Shown: positions 12,569-34,220 of the stretch, in pieces
Layout: the number at the start of each line of letters is the position of its first letter
How positions within the stretch are numbered: position 1 is the stretch's first letter
Position numbers and translations under genes: made by a program
Notes under the pieces: model-generated
Databases searched by the model: none
What the model was told of the DNA's origin: nothing
The model's input: the letters and a program-made list of their open reading frames with translations, nothing else
NCBI GenBank assembly: GCA_035294085.1
Contig: DATGLP010000022.1
Span: 1-59,742, forward strand
DNA from: Acidimicrobiales bacterium
GTDB taxonomy: Bacteria; Actinomycetota; Acidimicrobiia; Acidimicrobiales; Bog-793
Direction: 5' to 3'
DNA length: 59,742 nucleotides

Positions 12569-12584
12569 CAAGGGGGGTCCGAGC

Positions 12585-13958: not shown

Positions 13959-13959
13959 T

Positions 13960-16132: not shown

Positions 16133-16192
16133 CGCACGTGCACTCCTCGTCGAGCAGGTACGTCGAGTGGTCGATCGGGTACGTCGGGTCGG

Positions 16193-17200: not shown

Positions 17201-18031
17201 TCAGTGGGTCAGGAAGTCGATGACGATGCGCGCGTACTCGTCAGGGTGCTCGGTGATGACGAAGTGCCCGCTGCGGTCGCCCCAGATGACGGCACGGGAG
17301 CGAGGAATGAGCTTGAGCAGGCCGAAGGCCTCCTCCACGGGGATCATGCCGTCCTCGTTCCCCCACAGGATGAGCGTGTCGGTGCGGAGCCGGTGCAGCT
17401 CGCCCCGCAGATCGCTGTTCGACGCGTTGGTCATCTCCCGCCGGGACTCGAGGTGCCCAGGCGTGAGCGCCATCTCGAAGCGGTGCTTCACGATCTCTGG
17501 CGTACGGAACTCCTCTCGGGGAGTGAAGTAGCTGAAGACCCGCTCCATGTTCTCGATCGTCGGGTTGTTCGCGAAGGCGCCGAGCGACTTGATCCCCTCG
17601 GGCAGCTCCCCCTCGTGCGGGCCGACCTGCGTCGACTGCACGACGATCTTGCCGCAGCGGTCCGGGTACTCAAGGCCGAAGCGGAGCGCCGCCGGGGCAA
17701 ACTGCGACGACCCGTACTGGTGCGCCCGCTCGATGCCGAGGACGTCCATGAAGTCGCGGATCAGCCGGGCGATGAAGATGTCCATCGGCACGCCGTTGCG
17801 GCTGACGCCCTTCTGGGACTCACCGTAGCCCGGGCAGTCGAGCAGGATGGTGCGGAAGTGCTCGCTCAGCGGCTTGAGCACGTGCTTGGAGTTGTCCCAG
17901 GCGTTCGCGCCCGGCCCGCCGCCGTGGGTGCAGATGAACGCCGGCCCGCTGCCGGCCTCGTTGTAGTGGAGCCGGATCCCGCCGACGTCGACGAAGCGGT
18001 CGGTCTCCTCCTTGCTCAGCAGCTCCGGCAT
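17201..18031 (-). CDS. Meta-cleavage product alpha/beta hydrolase (MhpC/BphD-like)
   Basis: A 276-residue alpha/beta hydrolase of the C-C bond hydrolase group. The oxyanion loop HGGGPGA is at 36-42, the nucleophile Ser109 lies in GSSQF, the acid in WGNEDGMIP and the base in SGHFVITEHP. These enzymes split ring-fission products to a carboxylic acid and 2-hydroxypentadienoate, matching the hydratase downstream. Odd point: the nucleophile elbow lacks the usual second glycine (normally GNSMGG). A related amidase or esterase cannot be excluded. The 225 bases between it and the hydratase gene hold nothing recognised. Confidence 0.8.
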   Translation of the reverse strand: MPELLSKEETDRFVDVGGIRLHYNEAGSGPAFICTHGGGPGANAWDNSKHVLKPLSEHFRTILLDCPGYGESQKGVSRNGVPMDIFIARLIRDFMDVLGIERAHQYGSSQFAPAALRFGLEYPDRCGKIVVQSTQVGPHEGELPEGIKSLGAFANNPTIENMERVFSYFTPREEFRTPEIVKHRFEMALTPGHLESRREMTNASNSDLRGELHRLRTDTLILWGNEDGMIPVEEAFGLLKLIPRSRAVIWGDRSGHFVITEHPDEYARIVIDFLTH

Positions 18032-18068
18032 CTTCGCGCTCTCTCCTTCCTCCGTCCTCGCTGGACAC

Positions 18069-19019
18069 TCACCGGTACTCTGGCGGCAGCGCCGCGACGA
18101 AGAGCTCGTCGAGGCCGACGGGCCGGGAGACGAGCCCCTGATCGAGCGCGGTGGCGAGGAACGCCTCGATGGCCCGCCGGTTCGGCGAGATCCCGAAGGC
18201 GAACGGGTCGCCCCCGACCAGCTCGCGCAGCGCCTCGATGCGATGCCCGGCCGGTGGAAGCGGCCAGCGCGCGTCGAGGCGGCGCTCGCCGATCTCCTTC
18301 GATCGCCTGTAGGCGTCGAGGAGCGCAGGAACGACCTCGGGGTGCTCCTCCACGAGGCTCCGGCGGGCCACGGTGAGGTGCATGACCGGCAGCACTCCCG
18401 TCTTCTCGTAGTACTCGCGCTCGGCCGCCACGCAGTCCGGGTACGCGGGCGTGCTCACCGCGGCGATGTCCGGCGGGATCGCGCGCGCGCCCTGGACGAG
18501 GCAGGCGTCGATCGCGCCCTCGGCCATCAGCTCGGCGAGGCCTCGGCCCTCCTCGAGACGCAGCTCGACGCCGGACGGCAGGCCCACCTCGTCGAAGCGC
18601 TCCGGCTCGACGCTCACCCAGCGCACGTCCTCAGGTCGGACGCCGTGCATCTGCTGGAGCACGAGCCGCTGCCACACGCACGAGGAGATCCAGTACTGCG
18701 GGAGCCCGATCCAGCGACCCGCGAGGTCGTCGACGCCGGCGACGCCGGAGCCCCTCGCGAGGCAGATGCCCGAGTGGACGAAGTGCCGGCCCGAAGTGAA
18801 GACCGGCAGCGCGACGAGCGGCAGGCCCCGCTCGACGGCCCTCACGAACGTGGCGATCGACATCTCCCCGACGTCGTAGCGCAGCTCCAGCATCGCCCGG
18901 GAGTTGGCGTCGATCGTCTCTGGGCGGAAGACGTCGAGCTCGAGGCCATCGGGAACGACCTCGCCGCTCAGGAGGGCGTCGGCGAGCACCGAGGGTCGGA
19001 CCGAGAGGCTGACCCTCAC
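18069..19019 (-). CDS. 4,5-dihydroxyphthalate decarboxylase-like protein (binding-protein fold)
   Basis: A 316-residue protein with the periplasmic-binding fold but no signal peptide. It matches the family of 4,5-dihydroxyphthalate decarboxylases (Pht5-like) in order: LSVRPSVLADALLSGEVVPD, YDVGEMSIATFVRA, LVALPVFTSGRHFVHSGI, DDLAGRWIGLPQYW and DVRWVSVE. Its GTG overlaps the dioxygenase stop by four bases (GTGA), so the two are coupled. Family members decarboxylate ring acids or act as binding proteins. With a Rieske oxygenase and extradiol dioxygenase beside it, a decarboxylase role on a dihydroxy aromatic acid is the best guess. Confidence 0.75.
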   Translation of the reverse strand: MRVSLSVRPSVLADALLSGEVVPDGLELDVFRPETIDANSRAMLELRYDVGEMSIATFVRAVERGLPLVALPVFTSGRHFVHSGICLARGSGVAGVDDLAGRWIGLPQYWISSCVWQRLVLQQMHGVRPEDVRWVSVEPERFDEVGLPSGVELRLEEGRGLAELMAEGAIDACLVQGARAIPPDIAAVSTPAYPDCVAAEREYYEKTGVLPVMHLTVARRSLVEEHPEVVPALLDAYRRSKEIGERRLDARWPLPPAGHRIEALRELVGGDPFAFGISPNRRAIEAFLATALDQGLVSRPVGLDELFVAALPPEYR

Positions 19020-20089
19020 CGGAAGGCCGCCACGCACTTGGACGAGTTGAAGACGTAGGTCTCGGCGTACGCCAGCACCTCGGCGCGCCGGCCCTCCATC
19101 GCGCCGGCGAGGCAGATCCAGTTCAGCATCTCGTGCTGGCCCGAGGCCCGAAGCTCGTCGGGCGACAGGTCGCGCCAGGCGGCGAACTGGTTCTGGCGGA
19201 GCTGCTCGAGGTGGTGGCGATCGGACTCGACGTCGCCCCACAGGTAGCCGTGCATCGGGGTCAGCGACGCGTGCGACCAGCTCGACGAGCCGATGACGAG
19301 CGCGCGGTACGGGCTCGCCGCGAGGATCTCGGCGACGCGCCGGCCGAGGTCGTAGCAGCGCCGAGGCGTCGGCGAAGCCGGCGGCGCCTGATCGACGCCC
19401 TCCATCAGCCGCCCCGGGACGATCTTCCCGCCCGCGGCGGGGACCTTGAGGTCCGCGCCGTAGCAGCTGACGTGGAAGGGGATGACGGTGTAGGGGAAGC
19501 CACGGCGGTCCCAGTCCAGGTAGTCGATGCTGTGGCTGAAGGCGTGCCCGAGACGGGTCAGGTGGTGGAGCCGCCAGCTGCAGGCCACGTCGAAGTCGGA
19601 GAGCACGAGCTCGTTCGCGAGCTCGGTACCGATCCGCCTGCTGCCCGCGAGCGTCTCCTGCAGCGGCGGCTTCTCGAGAGGCCGGGCGAAGGCGGTGGGC
19701 CCCGAGCCGCCCGGGACACCCTCGCGGAAGCCGCCGAGACCGCACTCGTCCATGGCGTACACGCAGAACGGTGGGAGCACGTCCTCCCTGAAGTTCTCGT
19801 ACTGGTCGTCGGCGAAGATGACGATGACCTCCGGCGCGAACTCGTCGATGATGGCGCGCGCCCGCCGGCAGCCGGCGATGGCCTCCTCGCGATGCGCCCT
19901 CGCCGCGCTGAGCGCCTCGTCGTCGCCCCACTCCTTCTGGAGCTCGATCGGCCAGTTCGCGGGGTCGCGCAGCTCCGCCGGGGTGTCCGGGTTGGCGAGG
20001 GTCAGCTTGAAGTACACGTTGGCCATGGTCTCGTCGGTCAGCCCCGGCTGCGGCCCGTGGAACATCCCGATGCCCATGATCTCCGCCAT
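19016..20089 (-). CDS. Class III extradiol ring-cleavage dioxygenase (LigB family)
   Basis: A 357-residue protein with the LigB-type fold. The N-terminal MGIGMFHGPQPG supplies the first His ligand, EVIVIFADDQYENF is near 86-99, and the C-terminal VIGSSSWSHASLTP near 265-278 carries the active-site His region. These Fe(II) enzymes open catecholic rings by meta cleavage. It feeds the hydrolase, hydratase and aldolase downstream, and overlaps the decarboxylase-like gene. The substrate is probably a protocatechuate-, gallate- or catechol-like acid; this cannot be told from sequence alone. Confidence 0.82.
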   Translation of the reverse strand: MAEIMGIGMFHGPQPGLTDETMANVYFKLTLANPDTPAELRDPANWPIELQKEWGDDEALSAARAHREEAIAGCRRARAIIDEFAPEVIVIFADDQYENFREDVLPPFCVYAMDECGLGGFREGVPGGSGPTAFARPLEKPPLQETLAGSRRIGTELANELVLSDFDVACSWRLHHLTRLGHAFSHSIDYLDWDRRGFPYTVIPFHVSCYGADLKVPAAGGKIVPGRLMEGVDQAPPASPTPRRCYDLGRRVAEILAASPYRALVIGSSSWSHASLTPMHGYLWGDVESDRHHLEQLRQNQFAAWRDLSPDELRASGQHEMLNWICLAGAMEGRRAEVLAYAETYVFNSSKCVAAFR

Positions 20090-20417: not shown

Positions 20418-21596
20418 TCAGCTCTGGGCGAAGCCGACGGCGTGCTCGGGCCTCGGGTAGTGGAAGCGGATGATCTCGTTGGCAGCGGGATCGCGCACGA
20501 GCGCCATCGGCTCCTCGCCCCGCTCGACCCGGTCGATCTGCTCGGCCAGCATGCGGCGGAGCAGGGCGATGCCACGGTCGCCCGCCCCGAGGTGCTCCTT
20601 GGTACGGTCGGCGATCCTGCCCTGCGTCTCCCACGCCATCTGGTCTTGCACCTCGAAGGTCAGCATGTCGTAGCCGCCGTCCTCCGTGCGACCGAAGTCG
20701 CGCGGGAGCACCTTCATCTCCCGGATCTCGGACTCGGGGTCCGCGTCCATCCCCTCGGTCGGGTAGAACCGCATCTCGAAGACGTAGGTGTTCTCGTCGT
20801 CGACCGGGACGCGCCAGTGCAGCAGGTCGTCGCGCACGCCGTCACCGATCCGCAGCATGTTCGGGAAGATGAGCGGCGGGCGGACCTCGACGCCCGGGTT
20901 GTCGCCCCCGTACACGACGGTCTTCGTGATGCCCCACTCGCAGCGCTCGAAGTCGTAGCTCACGATCGGGCGCTCGTAGTACGCCGCCCGGATGCGGTCC
21001 GACTCGCCGGCCGGGAAGCCGAGCTCGCGCAGCATGTGGGCGTGCAGGTAGTACGTGTGCGTCGTGTCGGCCGTGTTCTCCTGGATCTGGAGCCAGTTGC
21101 ACTCGAGCGGGCCGCGCAGCCAGAGCGTGCGCCAGCCGTTGCGCATCACGAGCACGTCCCAGCGCGGCAGGAGCGGCGCCGGCTCGGGGCCAAGGTAGGC
21201 GAAGAGGAGCCCGCACAGACGCTGCACGGGGTAGGCGTTGATGCGGATCCGCCGCTTGTAGGCCTCCGACGGCTCGAACGGCTGCTCGATGCACTGCCCC
21301 CCGTCGTAGGCGAACTTCCACCCGTGGTAGGGGCAGCGGATGCCGTCCGGCTCGAGGAAGCCGTAGCGCAGCGAGCAGGACCGGTGCGCGCACTGCTCCG
21401 CGAAGAGCGCGTACTCGCCCGAGGGCTGCAGCGCCAGGACGAGGTCCTCGCCGAGGATTCGGAGGCGCATCATCGGTCGCTCGGGGCTGACCTGGTTCGC
21501 CAGCGCGACGGGGTGCCAGTAGCGACGGAGCAGGTTGCCGCAGGGGGTGCCGGGGCCGACCCGCGTCAGGCGCTCGTTCATCTCCTTGCTCAGCAT
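20418..21596 (-). CDS. Rieske non-heme iron oxygenase, alpha subunit (phthalate-4,5-dioxygenase-like)
   Basis: A 392-residue oxygenase. The Rieske [2Fe-2S] ligands are Cys69, His71, Cys88 and His91 (CAHRS and CPYHGW). The catalytic iron site is NTADTTHTYYLH, with His180 and His185. The start LRRYWHPVALANQV and the long C-terminal domain fit the phthalate dioxygenase / carbazole-type single-component alpha subunits. Such enzymes hydroxylate or demethylate aromatic acids using electrons from a reductase. No reductase gene is present in the window, so it must be supplied from elsewhere. It is followed by the small HicB-like gene and the dioxygenase. Confidence 0.92.
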   Translation of the reverse strand: MLSKEMNERLTRVGPGTPCGNLLRRYWHPVALANQVSPERPMMRLRILGEDLVLALQPSGEYALFAEQCAHRSCSLRYGFLEPDGIRCPYHGWKFAYDGGQCIEQPFEPSEAYKRRIRINAYPVQRLCGLLFAYLGPEPAPLLPRWDVLVMRNGWRTLWLRGPLECNWLQIQENTADTTHTYYLHAHMLRELGFPAGESDRIRAAYYERPIVSYDFERCEWGITKTVVYGGDNPGVEVRPPLIFPNMLRIGDGVRDDLLHWRVPVDDENTYVFEMRFYPTEGMDADPESEIREMKVLPRDFGRTEDGGYDMLTFEVQDQMAWETQGRIADRTKEHLGAGDRGIALLRRMLAEQIDRVERGEEPMALVRDPAANEIIRFHYPRPEHAVGFAQS

Positions 21597-21732: not shown

Positions 21733-22707
21733 CTAGCGCCGGGACTCGGGCAGCGCCAGCCCGAGCAGCCCCGCCGCGGTAGCGCCGAGGATCCCGGCCT
21801 TCGCGTCCTCGGGAACCGGGAGGCCGCGGACGTGCTCGATCCGGTCAGCGAACTCCTCGGGCGTCTTCACGTAGGGAAAGTCGGTCCCGAAGACGAGGCG
21901 GTCGTGGCCCACCGTGTCGCAGGCGCAGCGCAGCGCCGGGGCGTGCCGCATCGCCGTGTCGTAGAACAGGCGCCGCACGCCCTCCTCGGACGACCCGGAA
22001 CCCTCAGCGATGCCGCTCGAGCGCCACCCATCCTCGGCCCGCCGCACGTGCGAGGCGATCCGGCCGTGAATGAACGGGAGCGTCCCGCCCAGGTGCGGCA
22101 CGATGATGCGCAGGCGAGGGTTGCGGACGAGCACGCCGGACAGGAGCAGGCGCACGGCCGCGATCGTGTCCTCGAACATCGCGCCCACCGAACGGTCCAT
22201 GCCGTAGCTGTTCGGCCCGAACCCGTCGTAGAGCATCGTCGGGTGGAGGAACACCGTGAGCGCCCGCCGGTCGAGCTCCGCGTACAGCGGTGCGAAGACG
22301 GGGTCGTCGAGCTGTCGCCCGAGCACGCTCGTGCTCATCGCGACGCCCGCGACGCGCGGCTCGCCGACGAGGCGGTCGAGCTCGGCCAGGGCCGCGTCGA
22401 GGTGCGGGAGGGGCAGGGCGATGAAGGTGGCGAAGCGGCCCGCGAACGTCTCGCAGGTCTCGAGGTAGCACTCGTTCGCCTGCTTCGCGAGGTCGACGGC
22501 AACCTTGGGGTCCTCGTAGTAGGGCTGGAGGACGCCGACGGAGAGCACCTGCAGGTCGACGCCGACGCGGTCCATGAGCTCGACCCGCTCGGCGAGCGAC
22601 AGGCTGCTCAGCGGCGCCGCGCTGAGGCGCGGGAGCGCGCCACCGTGCTCCTCCACCCGGCGCAGGAAGTCCGGCGGGAACAGGTGGGCGTGGACGTCGA
22701 CGATCAC
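21733..22707 (-). CDS. Amidohydrolase-2 family protein (ACMSD/resorcylate decarboxylase-like)
   Basis: A 324-residue TIM-barrel metal hydrolase. It begins IVDVHAHLFPPDF (His6, His8 metal ligands), continues with TVFLHPTM, IVPHLGGTLPFIHGR and the terminal metal Asp region VFGTDFPYVKTPEEF. This is the group of aminocarboxymuconate-semialdehyde and resorcylate decarboxylases, so ring or side-chain decarboxylation is likely. GTG 22707 was chosen for its GGGGAGGGG ribosome site. Sixteen bases upstream ends a broken ABC ATPase fragment. A frameshifted copy of this gene's start lies at 30020-30273. Confidence 0.85.
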   Translation of the reverse strand: MIVDVHAHLFPPDFLRRVEEHGGALPRLSAAPLSSLSLAERVELMDRVGVDLQVLSVGVLQPYYEDPKVAVDLAKQANECYLETCETFAGRFATFIALPLPHLDAALAELDRLVGEPRVAGVAMSTSVLGRQLDDPVFAPLYAELDRRALTVFLHPTMLYDGFGPNSYGMDRSVGAMFEDTIAAVRLLLSGVLVRNPRLRIIVPHLGGTLPFIHGRIASHVRRAEDGWRSSGIAEGSGSSEEGVRRLFYDTAMRHAPALRCACDTVGHDRLVFGTDFPYVKTPEEFADRIEHVRGLPVPEDAKAGILGATAAGLLGLALPESRR

Positions 22708-22829
22708 CGGCGATCCCCTCCCCTCACGCCGTCGGCGAGCCGGCAGCGGCATCCTCGGCGGCCCGGACGCCGAGCTCCTCGACGATCAGCTGCCGCAGCT
22801 TGATCGCCGGTGGGCGTACGGTCCCCTCC
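22470..22829. repeat. Left copy of a diverged direct repeat
   Basis: About 360 bases spanning the amidohydrolase 5' part, a 16-base spacer and the last 35 codons of an ABC ATPase. It aligns collinearly with 30030-30380 at roughly 80 percent identity by eye. Long shared blocks include GACGCCGAGCTCCTCGACGA in both copies. Homology stops near 22829 on this side, which marks the left edge of the intervening block. Confidence 0.8.
22724..22829 (-). pseudogene. 3' fragment of an ABC transporter ATPase gene
   Basis: The reading frame ends AIKLRQLIVEELGVRAAEDA and stops at 22724, matching almost residue for residue the end of the intact ATPase at 30290 (AIKLRELIVEELGVQAAEDA). Only about 35 codons remain; the sequence upstream is unrelated and no start exists. 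It is a truncated remnant sitting exactly where the full ATPase would lie relative to the amidohydrolase. Confidence 0.85.
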
Positions 22830-23590
22830 GCAGGCGTGACGCGCAGCCAGCCTACGCAGGCTCGCCGATGACGCGGTCGCCGATGACGGTCGCCGAGCAC
22901 GTCATTCGCCAGGCCGATTTCCCGGACTCTCCACACAACGCCATCCTGTCGCGCGGCAGCATCGCGCTGCCCCCACGCTAGGGGGACGTGCGCGAACGTC
23001 AAGGCCGCCAGATCGATCAATGGAACGAGATCGAAGGGTCCCGAGCTTCGACCCTCACCACCTTTCGGCCCTCGCCACCTTCTGTCGGGCCACAGACCTC
23101 TCGCCGGCGCTGGCGGAGGCCTGGTTCACCACCTGGCCGCGCGGACCAAGCCCCGACGACGCGATCCGGGTCGGGCTCCGGCACGACAGCCGCACCCAGT
23201 TCACCTCGACCGACGACCGCCAGGTCCCCGACGCCCGCGGCGTCTAGGCGTTCTGCACTGCCTCCCGGCACCCCAACGGGATCGCCTCCCTCGAACGGCT
23301 GTATCGGACCCTCGAGGAGGAGGCGTCTGACCCAACGACCTCCCCGACTTCGACGCGGCGCTGGCGCCATCGCGGCCTGGGTCGAGGACGACGACACACA
23401 CCGCCCGCGCGAGCCGCTGGGCCGAGGCACCACCTCGGCCGAAGCCCGAGCGGGGCGCTCAGCCAACGCACCTCCGCCGCCTGACTGTCGACCAGCGCGG
23501 GAGTCGCCTCGCTGCACGCGACGGGCGTGTGGCACCACCACGCCACGACGGCACCGCCCCCCCACCACACCAGCACCGGCCACAGGTCGG
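22830..23590. other. Left edge of the inserted block
   Basis: This 761-base stretch has no intact gene. It runs from the end of the repeat homology to the biotin carrier gene and contains the transposase remnant described separately (23150-23455). No terminal inverted repeat or target duplication could be seen by eye. Confidence 0.5.
23150..23455 (+). pseudogene. Degraded transposase, integrase-core (rve) fragment
   Basis: Read across two frameshifts, the plus strand shows the order seen in IS3/IS481-type integrase cores: GLRHDSRTQFTS (second catalytic Asp), then HPNGIASLERLYRTLEEEAS (catalytic Glu helix), then AAIAAWVEDDDTHRPREPLG and TSAEARA, equivalent to the usual AIAAWIEDYNxxRPHxALGxxTPxE end. 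An in-frame TAG lies at 23245-23247. It is broken and truncated, with no N-terminal part recognised, and it borders the inserted block. Confidence 0.65.
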
Positions 23591-24154
23591 CTATGCCACC
23601 TCCAGCTCGATCAGAGCCTGACCGAACTCAACGAACTCCTCGTTCTGCACGAGGACGCGCTTCACACGCCCTGCCTTGCCCGCCAGAACGGCTGTGAACA
23701 CCTTCATCGCCTCGATCAGACCGACGGTCGTCTCGGGACGGACCGTGTCGCCTACCTGCACGTAGGGCGGAGCACCCGGTTCCGGCGCGCTGTAGAAGGT
23801 ACCGACCAGCGGCGCCAGTACCACATCCCCAGGTGCTTCGACCTGAGGACCGGCACGAGGACCGTTCGGCGCCGCTTCGGTCTCCTGCGAGCACGAAGCC
23901 GCGTCCACGGCTGTCTCGTCGCGGTTGCCTACCCTTGGCGCAACCGCCGATCCGACGGTACCCGCGGGGTCGACCGCAACCGGGGATGAGGCGAGGGCGG
24001 CCGGCACGCCGAACCGGTTCAGTTCGGCCACGGCGGCGGCATCTACGCCGATCACGAGCTCGCCGTTCTCGGCCACGACGCGCAGCGCGCCGATGCGTCT
24101 GTTCGCCACCAGCTCGACGAGCTCCTGGATCTCAGAATTCCGCAACTCGAACAC
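23591..24154 (-). CDS. Biotin carboxyl carrier protein
   Basis: A 187-residue AccB-like carrier. The C-terminal biotinyl domain (about 108-187) contains the biotinylation motif EAMK at 148-151, with Lys151 as acceptor, after PLVGTFYSAPEPGAPPY, the thumb region typical of acetyl-CoA carboxylase BCCPs. A Pro/Ala-rich linker joins it to an N-terminal helical region (LRNSEIQELVELVANRRIGA) that usually docks on the carboxylase. GTG start with GGGGAG upstream. It is the last gene of the carboxylase block and would carry CO2 between the biotin carboxylase (28509) and the carboxyltransferase (26881). Confidence 0.9.
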   Translation of the reverse strand: MFELRNSEIQELVELVANRRIGALRVVAENGELVIGVDAAAVAELNRFGVPAALASSPVAVDPAGTVGSAVAPRVGNRDETAVDAASCSQETEAAPNGPRAGPQVEAPGDVVLAPLVGTFYSAPEPGAPPYVQVGDTVRPETTVGLIEAMKVFTAVLAGKAGRVKRVLVQNEEFVEFGQALIELEVA

Positions 24155-24716
24155 CGCAGATCTCCCCTCGCCGCAACAACTCCCCTGCCGACCGAAACGG
24201 CACCGAGCCGACCTTCGCCGGGCCGCCAGCGCCCGTGCCAGATCAGCGGTCCGACCGCACTCCTGGGCCGCAGCTTCTCAGCGGTACGGCTCCTCTCAGA
24301 ACTCGGACGACCGCGTCGCCTCCACAGCTGGGTGTTCACGCAGCGAACGATGCGTGTGTGGAGCAGCGACGTCGACGCAGCCGAACGGCCAGGAGACAGT
24401 GCGCGCGCAAGGAGCTGCACCTGACCGCCACCGAGACCACCGGGAAGACGGTCACCACCGACCTGATCAGCGTGCGTCTGAAGACAGCCGACGGGTCGCC
24501 ATGTGCCATCTGCACCCTCGTACCCGTGCTCGATCTTGTAGCCCGTCTGCGAGGCGTTGACGACCGTGCCTTGGGCATCGACGAGGGTGCCTCGGGCACC
24601 GACGACGGCGTCGACGGAGTCGCACTCCTGCTCGGCCAGGCCAGAGCCGGGCCATTCGTTCTGGCGACGTGCGGGTGCTGTCTCGTGGTCTTCCCTGCCC
24701 CTGATGGCCAGCATTC
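24155..24716. other. 562-base gap inside the carboxylase block
   Basis: No intact gene is seen between the biotin carrier and the amidohydrolase gene. The part next to the amidohydrolase (24495-24620, minus strand) may be the remnant of a sugar-kinase-like gene; the rest (24160-24490) holds nothing I recognise. The decayed DNA suggests a gene was lost here. Confidence 0.5.
24495..24620 (-). pseudogene. Possible remnant of an FGGY-family carbohydrate kinase N-terminus
   Basis: The minus strand reads SVDAVVGARGTLVDAQGTVV, then NASQTGYKIEHGYEG. This resembles the first ATP-binding strand pair of FGGY kinases (G-T-x-G-x-R-x-x-L-V-D-x-x-G-x-V-V, then Y-x-x-x-H-x-x-x-G). Similarity fades within about 45 residues, no kinase core follows and there is no start codon context. 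A chance resemblance is possible. Confidence 0.35.
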
Positions 24717-25586
24717 CTACTCCAGGCCGAACAGCCGTACCGCGTTGTCCCGAATGATCTTCTGCTTCGACGCCGCCGGGATCGGGAGCGCGTTGAATTC
24801 CTCCATCCAGCGATCAACCGACACGATCCCTGAGTCGGATCCGAACAGCATCTTGTCGGACAGGATGCTCTTGGCGTGGTTCACCAGGTCCTGGGAGAAG
24901 TGCTTTGGCGCCCACCCTGACAGGTCCATGAAGTAGTTGGCCTTGTGGCGCGCCACGGCCAGATTCTCGGCATCGTACGGCCATGAGGGATGGGCACCGA
25001 TGATCTTCAGCTCGGGGAAGTCGGCGGCCACGTCGTCGAGGTATGGAATGGGCCTGGTGTACTTGAGCTTGATGCCCATGCCACCTGGTGTCCCAGCGCC
25101 TGCCGCCGCCATGCCCGTGTGGAACAGCACGATGAGGCCGAGTTCCTGGATCGTCTCCCACAGGGGGTAGAAGCGGGGGTCGTTCGGGTAGAAGTGCTGG
25201 CGGGCTGGGTTGAACTCCCCGATACCCTTCAGTCCAAGGTCGGCACACCGGCGGACTTCCTCGATGGCCAACCGCCCCATCCAGGGGTCCACGATGCCGA
25301 ACCCGATCAGTACGTCGGAGTTCGCCTCGACCACCTTGGCCACGTAGTCGTTCGGCAGCCCGCGTCGCCCGGTCACGGTCTCGTCCGTCGTGTTCAGGAC
25401 GACAGCCATCATCCGACGGCGCCGGTACTCCTCCGCCATCTCGTCCGCGGGGACGATCTCGTACCGGCGGCCCGCGTACCGCGCCATCTGGCGTGCGGTC
25501 TCGCCGGCCGCCTCGCGGGCGGCAGCGTCGCGGAGGTGGACGTGCACGTCGATCGCCACCACATCGCCGATGGTCATCCGTGTCAT
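24717..25586 (-). CDS. Amidohydrolase-2 family protein of the carboxylase block
   Basis: A 289-residue TIM-barrel hydrolase. AIDVHVHLRD has His15 and His17; LIVLFHTGMAAAG, LKIIGAHPSWPYDAENLAVA and LFGSDSGIVSVDRWMEEF supply the remaining His and Asp ligands. ATG 25586 follows GGAGGGG. It is related to, but distinct from, the one at 21733. The group includes decarboxylases and lactone or amide hydrolases. It lies directly after the family III CoA-transferase gene and is probably cotranscribed. Base composition is visibly less GC-rich than in the flanking operons. Confidence 0.85.
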   Translation of the reverse strand: MTRMTIGDVVAIDVHVHLRDAAAREAAGETARQMARYAGRRYEIVPADEMAEEYRRRRMMAVVLNTTDETVTGRRGLPNDYVAKVVEANSDVLIGFGIVDPWMGRLAIEEVRRCADLGLKGIGEFNPARQHFYPNDPRFYPLWETIQELGLIVLFHTGMAAAGAGTPGGMGIKLKYTRPIPYLDDVAADFPELKIIGAHPSWPYDAENLAVARHKANYFMDLSGWAPKHFSQDLVNHAKSILSDKMLFGSDSGIVSVDRWMEEFNALPIPAASKQKIIRDNAVRLFGLE

Positions 25587-25638
25587 GCAGGCACCCCTCC
25601 GTCCGTAGGTCGTCTGTCCGGGCAGTAGCGGGAACGCG

Positions 25639-26865
25639 TCACTCCTGCCCTCCGACTGCAGCGCCGGCGCCGCCGCTCGCGACCGCTTGCCGATCAATGC
25701 CCACCTCGGCCAGGACCGCCTCGGTGTGCTCACCAACCCACGGCACCGCGGCAGAGCGGTCGGGCGCCGCGAACCCCGCGATGGGGCTGCCGACGCCTGT
25801 GAAGGCCCGTTCGCCGCTGCCGAACCGGTGGAACAGATCCAGGGACGTGACGAGCTCGTCTTCGGTCGCTTCCGCAACCGTCAGGATTGGGGCGACAGGC
25901 ACGTCGGCCGCGGTCAGTCGCTCCAGCCATACCTGACGGGGCTCGGTGACGAACACCCTTGACAGCACGTCGTGCAGCTCCTCGTAGTGCTCGCGACGAG
26001 CAGCCGGGCTCGCGAAGCGCTCGTCGTCCGCCAGTTCCGGAACCCCCAGCGCGCTGACGAGGCTCGTCCAGAACTTCGACACCGACGACAGGTGGATGGC
26101 GATCGGCAGCCCATCGGCGCAGACGAAGCCGTGCGACTGCGAGGCCCGGACACGCGACATTCGGTCCGCCACCTCCCCCGACGAGAAGTAGTTGGCGAAG
26201 GCGATCTCCTGGATGGAGACGCAGGCACCCAGCATCGTGGCCGTCACGTGCGCCCCCCGGTCGGTGCGGCTCCGCTGGACCAGAGCGGCCAGCACGGCGA
26301 GGGCTCCCTGCATGCCGGCGAGGTGGTCGGCTAGGGCCGGTCCACTGGGTGTGGGTCGCGTCATGTCGGTGAACTGGCTCCACAGCCCGCTGCGGGCCTG
26401 CGCGATGGCGTCATACACGGGCCGCTGGTCGCTGTCGTTCATTCCCCTGATCGAGCAGTAGACGAGCCTGAGGTTGTGCTGCATCAGGTCGCCGTAGCCG
26501 AGGCCGAGGGCGTCGAGGAACCCGGGCCGGAAGTTCTCGATCAACACGTCCGCTGATTCGATCAGTCGGACAACGGCTCGTTGACCGGCCTCGGTACGGA
26601 TGTCGACGGCGACGCTGCGCTTGCCGCGGTTGATCGACTTGAAGGCGTCGCTCGACTCCCTGCTGCGGGCATCCCAGCGACGGAAGGGATCGCCGGTTCC
26701 CGGCAGCTCGACCTTGATCACGTCGGCACCGAGGTCGAGCAGCACCATGGCGGCGTACGGGCCACTGATCACATTGGCGAGCTCGATGACACGGATGCCG
26801 TGCAGCGGCGGCATCGGCTTTCCGTCCTGGTGCTCGCTCGCCGGGTGGTGGATTGCTGTGGTCAT
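25639..26865 (-). CDS. Family III CoA-transferase (CaiB/BaiF type), carboxylase block
   Basis: A 408-residue member of the formyl-CoA/carnitine CoA-transferase family: LHGIRVIELANVISGPYAAM near 20-39, ADVIKVELPGTGDPFRRW, SINRGKRSVAVD, and PALADHLAGMQGALAVLAAL, where the Asp is the expected acyl-anhydride residue. The usual donor is succinyl-CoA or another thioester. It starts 15 bases after the carboxyltransferase stop. Activation of an organic acid to its CoA ester before or after carboxylation is the likely role. It is distinct from the GC-richer family III enzyme at 35894. Confidence 0.9.
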   Translation of the reverse strand: MTTAIHHPASEHQDGKPMPPLHGIRVIELANVISGPYAAMVLLDLGADVIKVELPGTGDPFRRWDARSRESSDAFKSINRGKRSVAVDIRTEAGQRAVVRLIESADVLIENFRPGFLDALGLGYGDLMQHNLRLVYCSIRGMNDSDQRPVYDAIAQARSGLWSQFTDMTRPTPSGPALADHLAGMQGALAVLAALVQRSRTDRGAHVTATMLGACVSIQEIAFANYFSSGEVADRMSRVRASQSHGFVCADGLPIAIHLSSVSKFWTSLVSALGVPELADDERFASPAARREHYEELHDVLSRVFVTEPRQVWLERLTAADVPVAPILTVAEATEDELVTSLDLFHRFGSGERAFTGVGSPIAGFAAPDRSAAVPWVGEHTEAVLAEVGIDRQAVASGGAGAAVGGQE

Positions 26866-26880
26866 TGTCGGTCGGTCCTG

Positions 26881-28359
26881 TCAGCGGACGATGGTGAGGG
26901 AGCTGTCGCCGAGCGACAGGAAGAACCGCGAGATCTCGGGATTGTTGGCCACTGCCGTGGCCAGCTCTGCCAAGCCTGAGCCCCTGGGATACACACGGCG
27001 GTACTCGTCGTAGGTGGCCGTATACGCTCGGGGAGCTGGCGAGTAGACACGACCGGCTTCATCGCCGACGTAGAGCCGGAGGATGAGCTCCTCGTCGGTG
27101 ATCGACGCGCCGAGGCGCTGGCGGACCTCGTCGAGGCCGACCTCCGGTGGCGGCCGGCGTGCCGCCAACTCGGCGGCACGAGGCCGATCGAGGATCTGCT
27201 CTCTGATCCCGGGGTCCATCACGTCGACGGCTTCACGGCCCCTGCGACCCAAGGCGTACTCGATGACGTCGTCGGTCACGGTCCCGTAACGCTTCCCCGT
27301 GGCGACGTTGATGGCCGCCTGACTGCCGACGACCTGCGACAGGGGCGTCACCATGATCGGGTAGCCGAACTCGGCTCGCACACGGGCGACCTCCGCGAGC
27401 ACCTCCGGCAGTCGGTGCGCCATGCCGAGCTGCTGGAGCTGGAAGGCGAGGTGCGCGATCATCCCACCCGGCACCTGATGGGTGTACAGCGACTGATCGA
27501 AGTCCGTCGGGCTGCCCTCGGGCATGCCGGTGACCGACGCCACGTAGGACAGATGGTCGCGAACCCGTTCCAGCGGCGCCAGGTCGATCGCTGCCGTGAA
27601 GCCGAGCGCCTCGAGGTTCTGCACCGTGCCGAAGATGGACGGCTGCGAGGTGCCGCTGGCCAGTGGCGGAATGGCCGTGTGGAAGATGGTCACGCCGAGC
27701 TCGGCAGCGATCACGTAGTTCAACGGCGCCATCCCGTTGTTGGAGTGCGCATGGAACTCCACGGGTACATCGCCGGCCGCGTGCAGCACGACCGGAATCA
27801 ACTCACGAGTCCTCTCTGGCGTGAGCAGCCCACCGACGTCTTTGAAGCAGATCCGATACGGCTTCAATGCTGCGATCGCCTTGGCTCGATTCTCGTAGTA
27901 GTCGGTCGTGTGTCGCGGGGACACCGAGTAGATGAGGTTGACGACCGACTTGATCCCATGGGAGGCGAGCCGGTCGCGCTCCTCCCCGAGAGCGTCAGGG
28001 TCGTTCCACGGGTCAGAGATCCGCGTCGTGGTGATCCCCAGTTCCACCACTCGATCCAGCAGTACCCCGCGCACGGAGCTCGGTACTGCCCGCGCGAAGT
28101 ACGGCGTGCCACCGCCGTGCAGCCGAAGCTGCGTCCGACGAGCCAACGGGACACCCAGCTTCAGCCAATCCCAGGGATTCTCCCGAAGGTCCTTGACATG
28201 GCGAGCGAAGAGGCCGGGCTGGAGGAACTCAACACCGTCGAACCCCGCCGCATCGATGTCCGCTACCGTCGGCAGCATCGCATCGATGTTCAGGCGCGCC
28301 GCCCACAGGCTCTGCGCACCATCTCGCAGGGTGGTGTCCACGAAACGGACCTCGGGCAC
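26881..28359 (-). CDS. Biotin-dependent carboxyltransferase subunit (PycB/OadA/transcarboxylase-5S-like)
   Basis: A 492-residue protein with an HMGL-like TIM barrel (about 1-290), starting VRFVDTTLRDGAQSLW. It has ICFKDVGGLLTP, containing the functional Lys normally carboxylated, and EFHAHSNNGMAP with metal-binding His. The C-terminal PYC/OADA domain follows (YTHQVPGGMIAHLAFQLQQLG, then LSQVVGSQAAINVATG). It lacks the biotin domain found at the end of many relatives; that function is on the separate carrier gene. Relatives carboxylate or decarboxylate 2-oxoacids such as pyruvate and oxaloacetate. The acceptor here is unknown. GTG start with GGGGGTAGG. Confidence 0.9.
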   Translation of the reverse strand: MPEVRFVDTTLRDGAQSLWAARLNIDAMLPTVADIDAAGFDGVEFLQPGLFARHVKDLRENPWDWLKLGVPLARRTQLRLHGGGTPYFARAVPSSVRGVLLDRVVELGITTTRISDPWNDPDALGEERDRLASHGIKSVVNLIYSVSPRHTTDYYENRAKAIAALKPYRICFKDVGGLLTPERTRELIPVVLHAAGDVPVEFHAHSNNGMAPLNYVIAAELGVTIFHTAIPPLASGTSQPSIFGTVQNLEALGFTAAIDLAPLERVRDHLSYVASVTGMPEGSPTDFDQSLYTHQVPGGMIAHLAFQLQQLGMAHRLPEVLAEVARVRAEFGYPIMVTPLSQVVGSQAAINVATGKRYGTVTDDVIEYALGRRGREAVDVMDPGIREQILDRPRAAELAARRPPPEVGLDEVRQRLGASITDEELILRLYVGDEAGRVYSPAPRAYTATYDEYRRVYPRGSGLAELATAVANNPEISRFFLSLGDSSLTIVR

Positions 28360-28508
28360 GGCCTACCCCCTACCGGACTGCCGACAGTATTCGACTGTGG
28401 AACGATGACGAAGATCCCGGCGATCGACCCCTGACATCGCACGGGCTGCAGGGTCTGGACGCGGGATCTTCGTCGCACGGATTCATACGCAGCCTCGCGG
28501 ATCCATAC

Positions 28509-29891
28509 TCAGCCCGACCACCCTCCGTTCGTGCTGGCCGCAACCAGCCCCGAGTGCTCTTCGAGCCAACGTGTCGAGTACGCCCCAGCGGCGAATGCCG
28601 TACTTGCGAGGATGCGCGCCTGTAGACCTGCCGTCGTCGTGATGCCGCCAATCCGGAGCTCGCGGAGGGCCCCCGCGAGCACGGCTATCGCCTCGGCGCG
28701 GGTACGGCCATGAGCCATGACCTTCATGACCAACGAGTCGTAGAAGGGCGGCACCGCTGACCCGACCCTGAGGGATGAGTCGACACGCACTCCGGGCCCG
28801 CCTGGCAGCTGCAGGGAGCTCACGCGACCTGGCGATGGCTGGAAGTTCCTGGTCGGGTCCTCGGCGTTGATCCGGCACTCTATGGCCGATCCGCGCACCT
28901 CGACCTCGCGCTGCAGTGGCGGGGCGGCGGTCCCTGCCGCGAGCGCCAACTGCAAGGCAACGAGGTCCCATCCGGTCACGAGCTCGGTGATGCCGTGCTC
29001 GACCTGGAGACGAGGGTTGACCTCGAGAAAGTAGAACGCGTCGCGCGCCGGATCGACGATGAATTCGACCGTGCCGAGCCCGTCGTAGTTGACCGTCCTC
29101 ATCAGCCGAACGGCAGCGTCTCGTATTGCCTGCTGGAGGTGAGCCGCCAGGAACGGGGCCGGCGCCTCCTCGATCAGCTTCTGATTGCGACGCTGTATCG
29201 AGCAATCTCGATCGCCGAAGTGCACCGTCGCACCCTGTCCATCCGACGCGATCTGCACCTCGACGTGCCGGGCGAACGGGACGAACGACTCGAGGTAGAG
29301 TCGGGAGTCGCCGAACGCTGCAGCCGCTTCCGCCGACGCCGCCGAGAATTCGAGCGCCAGCTGCGACGCGTCTTCGATCAGCCGCAGGCCGCGCCCTCCA
29401 CCACCGGCGACGGCCTTCAGCAGCAGCGGGAAGCCGACGTCGCGAGCACAGCTCGCAGCCTCCTCCGCAGTCGCTAGCGGGCCCGAGCCTCGAGCAGTCG
29501 GAAGGCCCGCTGCCTCGGCCGCGGCGCGCGCCGCTACCTTGTCCCCGAACGTCTCGAGCAGCTCGCGACGCGGCCCGACGAACCGGAGCCCGGTGTCAGC
29601 GCACGCCCGAGCGAGCGCAGGGCTCTCGGAGAGGAAGCCGTAGCCGGGATGCACCGCGTCGCAGTGGGTACCGATCGCAGCCGACACGATCGCCTCGACT
29701 CGCAGATAGCTCTCGGCCGGCCTGTTGCCACCGATGCAGACCGCGCGATCGGCCAACTCAGCGGCGAGGCTGTCTCGGTCGGCTGGAGTGGTCGCTACGA
29801 CGCACTCAAGGCCCAGCTTTCTGCACGCTCGGATGACTCGCAGTGCGATCTCGCCGCGATTTGCGATCAGCACCCGCCGGATGGGCCTCAT
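28509..29891 (-). CDS. Biotin carboxylase subunit (AccC-like)
   Basis: A 460-residue ATP-grasp biotin carboxylase of normal length. IRRVLIANRGEIALRVIRAC at the start, DAVHPGYGFLSE, LKAVAGGGGRGLRL (ATP-grasp glycine loop, about 157-170), GDRDCSIQRRNQKLIEEAPA, FLEVNPRLQVEHGITE and AIECRINAEDP are all present. It carboxylates the biotin on the carrier protein using ATP and bicarbonate. ATG 29891 was chosen at the start of homology, although the frame stays open upstream into the pseudogene region. The C-terminal domain is intact. It is first in the carboxylase block, 149 bases before the carboxyltransferase. Confidence 0.93.
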   Translation of the reverse strand: MRPIRRVLIANRGEIALRVIRACRKLGLECVVATTPADRDSLAAELADRAVCIGGNRPAESYLRVEAIVSAAIGTHCDAVHPGYGFLSESPALARACADTGLRFVGPRRELLETFGDKVAARAAAEAAGLPTARGSGPLATAEEAASCARDVGFPLLLKAVAGGGGRGLRLIEDASQLALEFSAASAEAAAAFGDSRLYLESFVPFARHVEVQIASDGQGATVHFGDRDCSIQRRNQKLIEEAPAPFLAAHLQQAIRDAAVRLMRTVNYDGLGTVEFIVDPARDAFYFLEVNPRLQVEHGITELVTGWDLVALQLALAAGTAAPPLQREVEVRGSAIECRINAEDPTRNFQPSPGRVSSLQLPGGPGVRVDSSLRVGSAVPPFYDSLVMKVMAHGRTRAEAIAVLAGALRELRIGGITTTAGLQARILASTAFAAGAYSTRWLEEHSGLVAASTNGGWSG

Positions 29892-30019
29892 GGTTCTGCA
29901 GCCCAGACCGCCACCCCCAGAGGAGTGGCTCCCATCTCCTCGAACTCTCCACGCTCGACGTCGATCGCTCGAACGGCGATCGTCAGGACGGCGAAGGCAC
30001 GGCCGGACCCATCGAAGCC
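29892..30019. other. Right edge of the inserted block
   Basis: This short stretch upstream of the biotin carboxylase must contain the promoter of the carboxylase block, but no clear -35/-10 pair stands out. Homology to the left repeat fades here at about 30030. Confidence 0.35.
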
Positions 30020-30273
30020 ATGCGGTCTGTTCGGTGTTCGGCTGCTTCGGGAGGTCGACGGCGACGCGACCCTGCGGTCCTCGAAGCAGGGCGGGAGGAC
30101 GTCGCCGGAGAGCACCCGCAGATCGAGGCGGGCGCGGTCCAGGCGCTCGAACCCGCTCGGCGAGCGACATCCTGCCCAGCGGCGCCGCGTAGAGGCGCGC
30201 GAGCGCCACCGTGCTCTCCCACTCGGCGCAGGTCGTCCGGCGGGGACAGGAGGACGTGGGCGTCGGCGAGCAC
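30020..30273 (-). pseudogene. Frameshifted 5' fragment of the amidohydrolase gene
   Basis: Reading from a GTG at 30273, LADAHVLLSPPDDLRRVGEHGG matches the start of the intact amidohydrolase at 22707 (shown there as VDVHAHLFPPDFLRRVEEHGG). The match then jumps frame to LARLYAAPLGRMSLAERV, again to LDLRVLSGDVLPPCFEDRRVA, and back to VAVDLPKQPN. At least three frameshifts and loss of the second metal His show it is dead. It lies 16 bases after the ATPase stop, the same spacing as in the left copy. Confidence 0.85.
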
Positions 30274-30380
30274 GGTCGACGCCCAGCCTTCACGCCTTCG
30301 GGGAGGCCGCCGCAGCGTCCTCGGCGGCCTGGACGCCGAGCTCCTCGACGATGAGCTCCCGCAGCTTGATCGCCGTGGGG
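30030..30380. repeat. Right copy of the diverged direct repeat
   Basis: The counterpart of 22470-22829. It contains the real ATPase 3' end, the same 16-base spacer and the decayed amidohydrolase start. The two copies bracket about 7.2 kb carrying the carboxylase genes and the transposase remnant. Confidence 0.8.
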
Positions 30381-31105
30381 TCCGCGCGCACCTGCGACTG
30401 GGTCCGCGGGCGCTCGAGCGGCACGTCGGCGATGTCGACGATCCTTCCCGGATGCGAGCGGAAGAGCGCGATCCGGTCGGAGAGGAAGATCGCCTCGTCG
30501 ATGTCGTGGGTCACGAAGACCGTCGTCATCCGGAACTGCGACCACAGCCGCTGGAGCTCGACCTGCAGCGCCTCCCGGGTGAAGTTGTCGAGGTGGGAGA
30601 ACGGCTCGTCCATGAGGAGCACCTTCGGCTGCGTCACGAGCGCTCGCGCGATCCCGACGCGCTGCTGCATCCCGCCTGAGAGCGTGTAGGGCGGCTGCTC
30701 GGAGACCGAGCCCAGCCCGACGAGGCGGAGCACCTCCATCGCCGCGGCCCGGGCTTCCTTGCCGGTGATCCCGCGAGCCTCGAGGCCCAGCTCCACGTTC
30801 CGGCAGACGCTCCGCCAGGGCAGGAGCGCTGTCTCCTGGAAGACGAACGCCATGTCACGCGAGCTCGTGCGCAGCGGCTCGCCCTCGAAGAGCACCTCGC
30901 CGGCATCCGGGGTCGTGAGGTTGTCGAGGATCCGCAGCAGGGTCGTCTTGCCGCAGCCGCTCGGTCCGACCAGGCTGAGGAACTCGCCCCGCCGCACCGA
31001 GAGGCTGACGTCGTAGAGCGCCGCGACCCGCGTCCGCTTGACCTCGAAGACCTTCGTGATGTTGCGGGCCTCGAGGATCGCCTGGCCGTCCACGTCGGCG
31101 GTCAT
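30290..31105 (-). CDS. ABC transporter ATP-binding protein, NitT/TauT type (system II)
   Basis: A 271-residue ATPase. Walker A GPSGCGKTT is at 47-55, the signature LSGGMQQ at 142-148, Walker B VLLMDEP at 162-168, and the switch His in VTHDIDEAI. ATG 31105 overlaps the stop of the preceding permease by four bases (ATGA). The last 30 residues are duplicated as a remnant at 22724. It energises the two-permease importer of the operon at 31-34 kb and is the last intact gene of that operon. Confidence 0.9.
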   Translation of the reverse strand: MTADVDGQAILEARNITKVFEVKRTRVAALYDVSLSVRRGEFLSLVGPSGCGKTTLLRILDNLTTPDAGEVLFEGEPLRTSSRDMAFVFQETALLPWRSVCRNVELGLEARGITGKEARAAAMEVLRLVGLGSVSEQPPYTLSGGMQQRVGIARALVTQPKVLLMDEPFSHLDNFTREALQVELQRLWSQFRMTTVFVTHDIDEAIFLSDRIALFRSHPGRIVDIADVPLERPRTQSQVRADPTAIKLRELIVEELGVQAAEDAAAASPKA

Positions 31106-32028
31106 GCCTGCCCCATCGTGCCCGTCGCGCGCACCCAGCTGAAGAACATTCTCTCGATCCCCTTGAACAGTCCGACGATTCCGAGACCAATCCCCGCCGT
31201 GACGACGACGATGGCGAGGATCCTGTCCGTCGCGAGCTCCGTCTGGTAGAGCTGCAGGAGGTAGCCGATGCCGACGTTCGAGAACTCGAGCTCGGCGATG
31301 ATGAGGCCGACGAGGCTGACGCTCGCGCACAGGCGCGCGCCGGCGAGGATGTAGGGCACGGCGGCGGGGACTCTGATCTTGCGCGTCGTCTGCCAGGCAG
31401 TGAGCCCCGTCGCGCGGGCGACGTCGAGGTAGGTCCTGTTCACGTTGCGCACGCCGGCCATCGTGTTGAGGATCACGACGAAGATGTTCGTCAGCACGGC
31501 GAAGAGGATCCGGCCCTCGGACGCGACGCCGATCCAGACGATGAGCAGCGGGATGAGGACCACGCGCGGCGTCGCCATGAGGAAGTTCACGAACGGGTTC
31601 AGGAGTCGCTCCACCAGGCGGAAGCGACCCATCACCGTGCCGATCAGGACGCCCCCGACCATGCCGATCGCGAGCGAGATCGCCCACTCCGACATCGTCG
31701 AGGCGAGCGCCGACCCGAGGGTCCCCGAGTCGAACAGGTACCGGTAGGCGCGCGCGACCCGCCACGGGTTCGAGAAGAGGAGCGGGTTCAGCCACAGGCT
31801 GGAGAGCTGCCAGGCGCCGAGCAGCAGCGCCATCGCCCCCGCCGGCAGCAGGACGCGCAGCCAGCGCTCCCTCGTGCGGCTGCGCCCCGGCAGGCTGCGA
31901 AGGAGCGCCGCGACCTCCGCCTCGCGCGCTTCGCGCGCGCGGCTCGCCGAGCGCGCGCCGATCGCGGCTCCCTCCGCGAGCAGGGGCCCAGCCCCGCGGG
32001 ACTCGAGCTCGAGCATCTCGTCGGCCAT
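31102..32028 (-). CDS. ABC transporter permease B, SsuC/TauC type (system II)
   Basis: A 308-residue inner-membrane permease with a longer cytoplasmic N-terminus (about 50 residues) and a first span LLPAGAMALLLGAWQLSSLW. The binding-protein-dependent transport domain has the EAA-type loop YLDVARATGLTAWQTTRKIRVP. It begins four bases after the stop of permease A and overlaps the ATPase start. Two different permeases in one operon suggest a heterodimeric channel, unlike system I. Confidence 0.88.
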   Translation of the reverse strand: MADEMLELESRGAGPLLAEGAAIGARSASRAREAREAEVAALLRSLPGRSRTRERWLRVLLPAGAMALLLGAWQLSSLWLNPLLFSNPWRVARAYRYLFDSGTLGSALASTMSEWAISLAIGMVGGVLIGTVMGRFRLVERLLNPFVNFLMATPRVVLIPLLIVWIGVASEGRILFAVLTNIFVVILNTMAGVRNVNRTYLDVARATGLTAWQTTRKIRVPAAVPYILAGARLCASVSLVGLIIAELEFSNVGIGYLLQLYQTELATDRILAIVVVTAGIGLGIVGLFKGIERMFFSWVRATGTMGQA

Positions 32029-33086: not shown

Positions 33087-34220
33087 CTAGTACGCGTTCG
33101 GGTGCGCCTCATAGACCTTCCAGGCGGCCTTCCACGGCCCGAACACCGCCACCCGGTTCAGCGGACGGAGGCCCGCACCGGCGAACTCGCCGTAGGCCTT
33201 GTAGAAGTCGTAGTTGTACCGGACGATCTGAGGCGTGTAGTCGGACTCCTGGAGCGGCCACAGGTTGAGGCTCTTGAAGATGGTGTGGTCGTTCTCGACG
33301 GCCGACGGCGGATCCGCGTTCAGCGTGTAGTGCTCGGCGTAGGTGACCCAGCGCATCCAGTGGTCGTTGAAGGTCTTCGCGGCCGAGATCCACGCGAGGC
33401 ACAGCGCCTCGACGATCGCCGGGTCGTGCGCGATGAACTGCGGCGTCGCCCCCCAGAAGCTGTCGGCGATGCCGGGGTCGACCTGCGACGCGCGGGCCAG
33501 GACGTACAGGTGCCCGCCGAGCGCGGAGCGCAGGCTCTGCAGCGCAGACACGTGGATCCACGCCGCGTCGGCCTTGCCGGCGATCAGGACGGCGCCGATC
33601 GACGACCCCGACGACGAGCCCGTGACGTCGTAGGTCACCTGGCTCCGCTTCAGGTGCGCGTAGCGCAGCAGTGCCGGCATCAGCGTGTACTCCGCGCTCG
33701 TCGTCGTGCCGACGTCGATGGTCTTGCCCTTCAGCTGGGCGAGCGTCGGCACGTCCCGGGCCACGAAGACGTAGTCGAGGCGCGCCTGGTTCGGCATGAA
33801 GATCTCGAGCGGCAGGTTGATGAGGCTCGGCATGTCGCTGTTGATCGCGTCGATCTTGCCGGCGACGACGGCGTCCTGGCCCGTCGGCGACTCCGCGAGG
33901 GTCAGGCTCGAGGTCGCGCCCCACTTCTGCAGCGTCTGCTCGATGATGTAGCCGAGCGTGTCCTCGACGCCCGGGTGACTCCCGGCCGTCGCGATCGGGA
34001 TGTTCCACCCCTTCAGGTTCGGCGTCCCGCGCGACGTGAAGCCGAGCTTCTTCGCCGTCGTTCTCGTCACCCTCGCTTTCGTCGGCCCACGCTTCTTCGA
34101 GTGGTGCACCGATGCCGGGTGACGGACCGTGGCGCCAGCCGGGAAGGCGCCGAGGCCGAGGACGAGCAGCGGCGCGACGGCGAGGCTGGCGATGAGTGAA
34201 ACCTTGGATCTGCGATGCAT
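33087..34220 (-). CDS. ABC transporter substrate-binding protein, NitT/TauT type (system II)
   Basis: A 377-residue exported binding protein. The signal peptide is MHRRSKVSLIASLAVAPLLV, with a likely cleavage near GATV (about 30), and no lipobox Cys. A basic His/Lys-rich linker (33-60) precedes the binding fold (KGWNIPIATAGSHPGVEDTL; TGQDAVVAGKIDAINSDMPS; LKGKTIDVGTTTSAEYTL). ATG 34220 was taken because the signal peptide starts exactly there. It is the first gene of importer operon II and divergent from the two-cupin gene at 34693. The ligand is unknown, but the gene order suggests an aromatic acid used by the ring-cleavage operon. Confidence 0.82.
   Translation of the reverse strand: MHRRSKVSLIASLAVAPLLVLGLGAFPAGATVRHPASVHHSKKRGPTKARVTRTTAKKLGFTSRGTPNLKGWNIPIATAGSHPGVEDTLGYIIEQTLQKWGATSSLTLAESPTGQDAVVAGKIDAINSDMPSLINLPLEIFMPNQARLDYVFVARDVPTLAQLKGKTIDVGTTTSAEYTLMPALLRYAHLKRSQVTYDVTGSSSGSSIGAVLIAGKADAAWIHVSALQSLRSALGGHLYVLARASQVDPGIADSFWGATPQFIAHDPAIVEALCLAWISAAKTFNDHWMRWVTYAEHYTLNADPPSAVENDHTIFKSLNLWPLQESDYTPQIVRYNYDFYKAYGEFAGAGLRPLNRVAVFGPWKAAWKVYEAHPNAY

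Follow-up and report, generated by a model that had tools for sequence, protein, structure and literature searches.

How a single junction between two genes came to be present twice, on either side of a block of catabolic genes, is the question raised by a 59,742 bp stretch (the window) of contig DATGLP010000022.1 in the draft genome of an Acidimicrobiales bacterium (GenBank assembly GCA_035294085.1). The junction, which joins the gene for an ATP-binding cassette (ABC) importer ATPase to that for an amidohydrolase, has been duplicated, one of its copies (B) has decayed, and the block between the copies differs from the genome in base composition. The best joint explanation, held here with moderate confidence, is that a foreign block was inserted at the former junction, which was doubled, that copy B has since decayed, and that the block serves as a module for ketone breakdown.

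The doubled junction

A first-pass annotation of the window had described the same junction at two places, in the same direction and with an identical 16-base spacer, and the repeat alignment and the sequence itself bore this out. The repeat copies and the intact genes into which they run are as follows.

22474–22814, minus strand: repeat copy A, a 30-codon ATPase 3′ fragment, the spacer and the intact amidohydrolase 5′ end
30036–30379, minus strand: repeat copy B, the ATPase 3′ end, the spacer and a decayed amidohydrolase 5′ end with frame-breaking gaps, 83% identical to copy A
21733–22707, minus strand: intact amidohydrolase (Amidohydro_2; PF04909, E 3e-37), ahead of Rieske and LigB genes
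30290–31108, minus strand: intact ABC importer ATPase (PF00005, E 1e-33), the 3′ end of which is the right part of copy B

Copies A and B are direct repeats in which 287 of 347 aligned columns are identical, with 9 gap positions (blastn, E 1e-98). The same match was the strongest off-diagonal hit when the window was compared with itself (E 3e-95), and a search of the bacterium's own 2.42 Mb genome (387 candidates, 40 scored) returned only two matches at E ≤0.001, namely the two copies. On the minus strand, both read from the ATPase 3′ end through the stop codon and the 16-base spacer to the GTG start codon of an Amidohydro_2 gene. The doubled piece is 341–344 bp long, and its two copies are separated by a block of 7221 bp, in agreement with the 7.2 kb given previously.

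Copy A runs into the intact amidohydrolase gene and copy B into the intact ATPase gene. The ATPase piece in copy A had been correctly called a fragment but is not 35 codons long, as the homologous part covers 90 bases, or 30 codons including the stop codon. The amidohydrolase piece in copy B (232 aligned bases) contains frame-breaking gaps and is therefore frameshifted, as had been stated. Together, the two pieces show that the ATPase and amidohydrolase genes were formerly direct neighbours, supporting the proposal that the importer operon once ran directly into the amidohydrolase operon.

A longer open frame (22724–23125, minus strand) begins within the block and has the ATPase fragment of copy A as its last part, with its stop 16 bases ahead of the amidohydrolase start codon. 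This frame might couple translation, or could be due to chance in GC-rich DNA.

Divergence of the two copies

In the amidohydrolase part, 33 of 232 aligned bases differ between A and B, and these are distributed over 11 of 78 first, 18 of 77 second and 4 of 77 third codon positions (29 of 155 first and second positions combined). The spacers differ at 7 of 16 bases. At gap-free codons with a differing residue, homologues shared the residue of A 169 times and that of B 32 times, in 16 alignments from 13 loci picked by the analyst. Copy B also has Leu in place of the second His of the N-terminal HxH motif, which we take to have a role in the amidohydrolase. Because third-position differences are few, homologues side with A, and the second His is replaced, copy B is the decayed amidohydrolase copy, which gained most of its changes after being freed. 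With A taken as ancestral (30036–30273 compared with 22474–22707), 15 of 66 A/T sites have changed to G/C in B and 7 of 168 G/C sites to A/T. The implied substitution equilibrium is ~0.85 GC with a 95% sampling range of 0.70–0.93, a range that includes the genome's 0.74.

This mostly post-release decay disfavours the joining of two long-diverged clusters. The first-pass annotation had offered recombination with a related cluster as a second route, in which the two copies would come from related, already diverged clusters. An identity of 83% is low for a recent duplication, and the ATPase part, where 10 of 90 bases differ and 6 of these are among the 30 third positions, points in the same direction. 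However, functional divergence would give the opposite of the pattern seen in the amidohydrolase part, which makes up two thirds of the repeat, and this origin of the copies is considered improbable.

Origin of the block

The features of the block and of the flanking operon, from right to left, are listed here.

29888–30035, minus strand: open frame that may be the 3′ end of a block gene truncated at the repeat; its TGA overlaps the biotin carboxylase ATG and the frame is open up to the repeat
28509–29891, minus strand: biotin carboxylase subunit (PF00289, PF02786, PF02785)
26881–28359, minus strand: carboxyltransferase subunit, PYC_OADA type (PF02436, PF00682)
25639–26865, minus strand: family III coenzyme A (CoA)-transferase (PF02515, E 2e-93)
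24717–25577, minus strand: Amidohydro_2 protein, referred to as amidohydrolase 2 (PF04909), a possible beta-ketoacyl-CoA hydrolase like HpeF
24155–24716, no strand assigned: stretch without a recognised gene, separating amidohydrolase 2 from the carrier; the 3 frames tested matched no Pfam family
23591–24154, minus strand: biotin carboxyl carrier protein (PF00364, E 2e-12; TIGR00531, E 6e-31, under its cut-off; EAMK motif)
23167–23349, plus strand: probable IS3-type transposase remnant with an in-frame stop (hidden Markov model (HMM), 14.2 bits, E 0.0066)
20418–21596, minus strand: Rieske oxygenase of the flanking operon (PF00355, PF19301)
19016–20089, minus strand: LigB-type extradiol dioxygenase of the flanking operon (PF02900, E 2e-12)

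The block includes five recognised genes in the order biotin carboxylase, carboxyltransferase, CoA-transferase, amidohydrolase 2 and carrier, and all block and flanking genes share one direction. A change of base composition inside the block had been suggested from three hand-counted 60-base lines, and those counts of 36, 35 and 44 G+C were exact. The GC content of the whole block is 67.6%, compared with 74.3% in a genome sample of 20 stretches (390,997 bases, mostly contig starts) in which 7.2 kb windows had a mean of 0.743 and a standard deviation of 0.022. Values as low as that of the block (0.676) were found in 8 of 502 overlapping 7.2 kb windows, all from one locus (L165). The GC content at third codon positions (GC3) was 0.785 for the carrier, 0.794 for biotin carboxylase, 0.832 for the carboxyltransferase, 0.856 for the CoA-transferase and 0.878 for amidohydrolase 2, and of 232 sampled open reading frames (ORFs), 3, 3, 13, 25 and 42, respectively, had a GC3 as low. 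The block genes (0.79–0.88) are thus below the assigned flanking genes (0.90–0.98), a range from which the frame at 33109–34326 (GC3 0.505, no Pfam family) was kept out as no credible gene; the frame chosen by the ORF picker at the same place (33090–34745) has a GC3 of 0.897. The change in composition is therefore upheld, and the finding that the doubled junction brackets a compositionally distinct block supports the view that the block entered with a duplication of the junction.

Steps in composition at the block could also be produced if the contig were a chimeric assembly of two organisms, and the draft assembly consists of 31 contigs. However, the longest exact run common to A and B is 22 bases, and the decay seen in copy B bears the mark of a biological process, making an assembly artefact very improbable.

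L165 (G000:C9, ~9000–20000) is itself another low-GC stretch of the same genome, with GC as low as 0.66 in 7.2 kb windows and GC3 as low as 0.73.

Under the favoured explanation, an importer operon ending in the ATPase gene would originally have continued through the 16-base spacer into the amidohydrolase-Rieske-LigB operon. A foreign 7.2 kb block with genes for biotin carboxylase, CoA-transferase and an Amidohydro_2 protein, together with a mobile-element remnant, would then have entered at the junction. Doubling of the 341–344 bp piece on entry would have left both flanking genes intact and kept a single direction, and the spare amidohydrolase 5′ end would have decayed afterwards. The simplest route would be a single homologous crossover of the junction with a circle carrying a junction copy and the block, which on this account was acquired from elsewhere. 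Genomic islands and single-crossover integrations are insertions that can be flanked by direct repeats of the end of the target gene. The locus resembles such islands in having a block of differing composition between direct repeats and a displaced gene end at one side, but differs in that the repeat spans a two-gene junction of ~340 bp and is now 83% identical. It may represent one preserved scar of a catabolic gene order that was lengthened mid-way, with both neighbours left whole and the direction uniform.

Both edges of the block carry a feature that was absent from the first-pass annotation. At the left edge, an HMM built from 16 sequences (one plasmid protein annotated as IS3 family and 15 relatives from 60 related genomes, a set that includes the bacterium's own) was run over 4621 six-frame pieces of the window, and only pieces overlapping 23167–23349 scored above 4.0 bits. 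In a pairwise comparison, the transposase match beat 500 of 500 shuffles. At the right edge, the frame at 29888–30035 looks as if a donor gene had been truncated at the repeat, which is possible; it matched no Pfam family and gave only two plasmid hits, at E 6. A DNA search with 22815–23596 in the relatives and plasmids found only short GC-rich matches.

The best match to the amidohydrolase outside its own genome, among the 60 relatives, was 48% identical, in one genome of the same family, and at E 1e-55 a relative was found in none of 394 other genomes of the class (1 of 395 counting its own). ATPase relatives with 59–61% identity occur in three genomes of the same family, where the ATPase gene sits between two permease genes. 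Among 174 fetched loci, an ATPase relative was present in 45, an amidohydrolase relative in 58 and both in 10. The loci with both are distant (amidohydrolase 27–43% identical); the nearest pair is 223 bp apart on opposite strands (L042), among the listed same-strand pairs in which the amidohydrolase follows the ATPase, the closest is separated by 1970 bp (L090), and another pair in L042, on the same strand, lies roughly 1.7 kb apart.

Several points weigh against insertion of a foreign block as the explanation. The first-pass annotation had called for relatives with the joined ATPase-amidohydrolase order, and neither this order nor an empty site was seen in any relative examined, including the 10 loci with both genes, though no genome of the same genus was among those returned and this is weak evidence either way. 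Composition alone is no proof of transfer, as 42 of the 232 sampled ORFs have a GC3 as low as amidohydrolase 2. No integrase family was found among the block frames scanned, a further difference from the islands described above. The transposase match is weak and was tested only after it had been spotted by eye; its pairwise score was 76 compared with 73 for an unrelated real piece, and the frame had no match in Pfam or NCBIfam. Finally, third positions account for 6 of the 10 differences in the ATPase part but for 4 of the 33 found in the amidohydrolase part (post hoc Fisher test, p 0.005), and when third positions alone are compared, 6 of 30 and 4 of 77 differ (p 0.03). This pattern is not predicted by a single event followed by simple decay on both sides. 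A temporary constraint on the ATPase piece of copy A, which directly precedes the start of the amidohydrolase gene, might account for it, although this explanation is uncertain.

The same third-position bias would be expected if the piece in A had been in use for a time, as in a history that began with a larger tandem duplication of the importer-amidohydrolase region, the middle of which was later replaced by the block, leaving two 340 bp ends. Each copy sets just one end of the duplicated stretch, and such a history is for this reason a plausible one. However, no convincing further remnant was found beyond either repeat. A candidate Rieske-gene remnant left of copy B (29932–30039) scored 24.0 and beat 200 of 200 shuffles, but with slightly wider bounds scored 24.5 compared with 23.5 for an unrelated tile and was attributed to chance. 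Scores for an ATPase or permease remnant beyond copy A were equalled by 31 of 200 shuffles (285 bp) and 16 of 200 (782 bp). A larger duplication followed by replacement is therefore regarded as unlikely, though a serious alternative.

Predicted function and relatives of the block genes

The carrier, biotin carboxylase and PYC_OADA carboxyltransferase are separate subunits that are encoded together in the block. The carboxyltransferase has the same domains as pyruvate carboxylase subunit B and the oxaloacetate decarboxylase alpha subunit, and its best solved match is a pyruvate carboxylase subunit beta (5ks8), while its best NCBIfam match, at 287 bits, falls short of the cut-off of 402. A tree of 25 rows joined the window row to that of a Sulfitobacter plasmid (support 100/100) and then to a row from the same family (100/99). 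A 100/100 branch separated these and the rest of a group of 13 rows from 12 pyruvate-carboxylase-like rows, so labelled by the analyst from open frames of 1132–1264 aa, which included the row from the bacterium's own genome. On this tree, in which HpeB was not a row, the carboxyltransferase groups with Hpe-like clusters and, unlike the genome's own pyruvate-carboxylase-like row, lies apart from pyruvate carboxylase. Within the 13 rows, it is in a different sub-branch from the Hpe-like plasmid clusters L123 and L124. The long row L128 may be misplaced, and L110, which adjoins the window row's pair, is also long.

At E 1e-90, the carboxyltransferase was found in 3 of 395 genomes of the class, its own included. 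Relatives with 37–42% identity are present in three other genomes of the same family, so this kind of protein occurs in the family. At E 1e-5, it matched 155 of 72,556 plasmid records, the best (52.8%) being a Sulfitobacter faviae plasmid.

On plasmids of Rhizobium leguminosarum and Pseudomonas putida, genes for a carrier, biotin carboxylase, carboxyltransferase, HAD protein and acetoacetate-CoA ligase are clustered with one for an amidohydrolase. Phosphoenolpyruvate (PEP)-utilizing and PEP/pyruvate-binding genes are also present in the Rhizobium cluster, whereas the Pseudomonas cluster (L123) has no annotated PEP-type kinase, and no kinase of any kind is annotated beside the Sulfitobacter gene, in plasmid gene tables that are incomplete. 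Amidohydrolase 2 is 41–42% identical to the amidohydrolases of two Hpe-like plasmid clusters and 43% identical to a protein annotated as 4-hydroxyphenyl-beta-ketoacyl-CoA hydrolase, in a comparison that did not include HpeF itself. On a Thermomicrobium plasmid, the gene for a protein related to the block amidohydrolase (56.8% over 79% of the latter) has no carboxylase gene annotated beside it.

The Hpe pathway of Rhodococcus rhodochrous GD02, with relatives XccBCA and Acv, likewise combines a three-subunit biotin carboxylase with an amidohydrolase, as do plasmid clusters L123 and L124, although the Hpe proteins themselves were not compared. According to the published account, HpeHI phosphorylates the ketone, HpeCBA carboxylates it and HpeD removes the phosphate, after which HpeE and HpeF are proposed to form the CoA ester and release acetyl-CoA; HpeCBA gave no detectable transformation of unphosphorylated ketones (PMC9618137). 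The published enzyme was produced in Rhodococcus jostii RHA1, expression in E. coli having failed. The same account places a transposase and a duplicated hpeF fragment at the end of the hpe cluster, which was judged to be horizontally acquired (PMC9618137). This is a precedent for the locus described here, with its duplicated gene fragment and probable transposase remnant.

The block differs from Hpe in its gene order, as given above, and in that no kinase or phosphatase was seen; the place of the Hpe CoA ligase is taken by a family III CoA-transferase. No HpeHI-type kinase families were found among 20 frames scanned at 15–37 kb, and the sole match that one kinase-like query (from L124) had in other parts of the genome spans 116 residues. 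Neither a phosphatase nor a CoA ligase was found in the block frames scanned. As the block shows no kinase, phosphatase or ligase, we infer a kinase-free route with CoA transfer. In this route, the carboxylase would add CO2 to a ketone, the CoA-transferase would activate the beta-keto acid so formed, and the Amidohydro_2 protein would split the beta-ketoacyl product into an acid and acetyl-CoA. The released acid would feed the adjacent ring-cleavage operon. Judged from its gene content, the block is thus predicted to be a ketone-to-acid-plus-acetyl-CoA module, probably for ketone side chains, ahead of that operon. The block may represent a ketone carboxylase branch that dispenses with the phosphorylation required by HpeCBA (PMC9618137). 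A fuller proposal is put forward only tentatively: that this is a portable, kinase-free ketone carboxylase branch with CoA-transfer activation, that it entered by a junction-doubling insertion breaking no gene, and that the spare end records substitution in a 74% GC genome.

A promoter and terminator scan of 22300–31200 gave no promoter-like and one terminator-like site (shuffle means 0.5 and 2.1), which says little. The stretch at 24155–24716, 562 bp with no recognised family, is perhaps a decayed gene. The second-strongest match of the window to itself, 6106–6602 with 30476–30972 (68% over 506 columns), has one side inside the importer ATPase gene.

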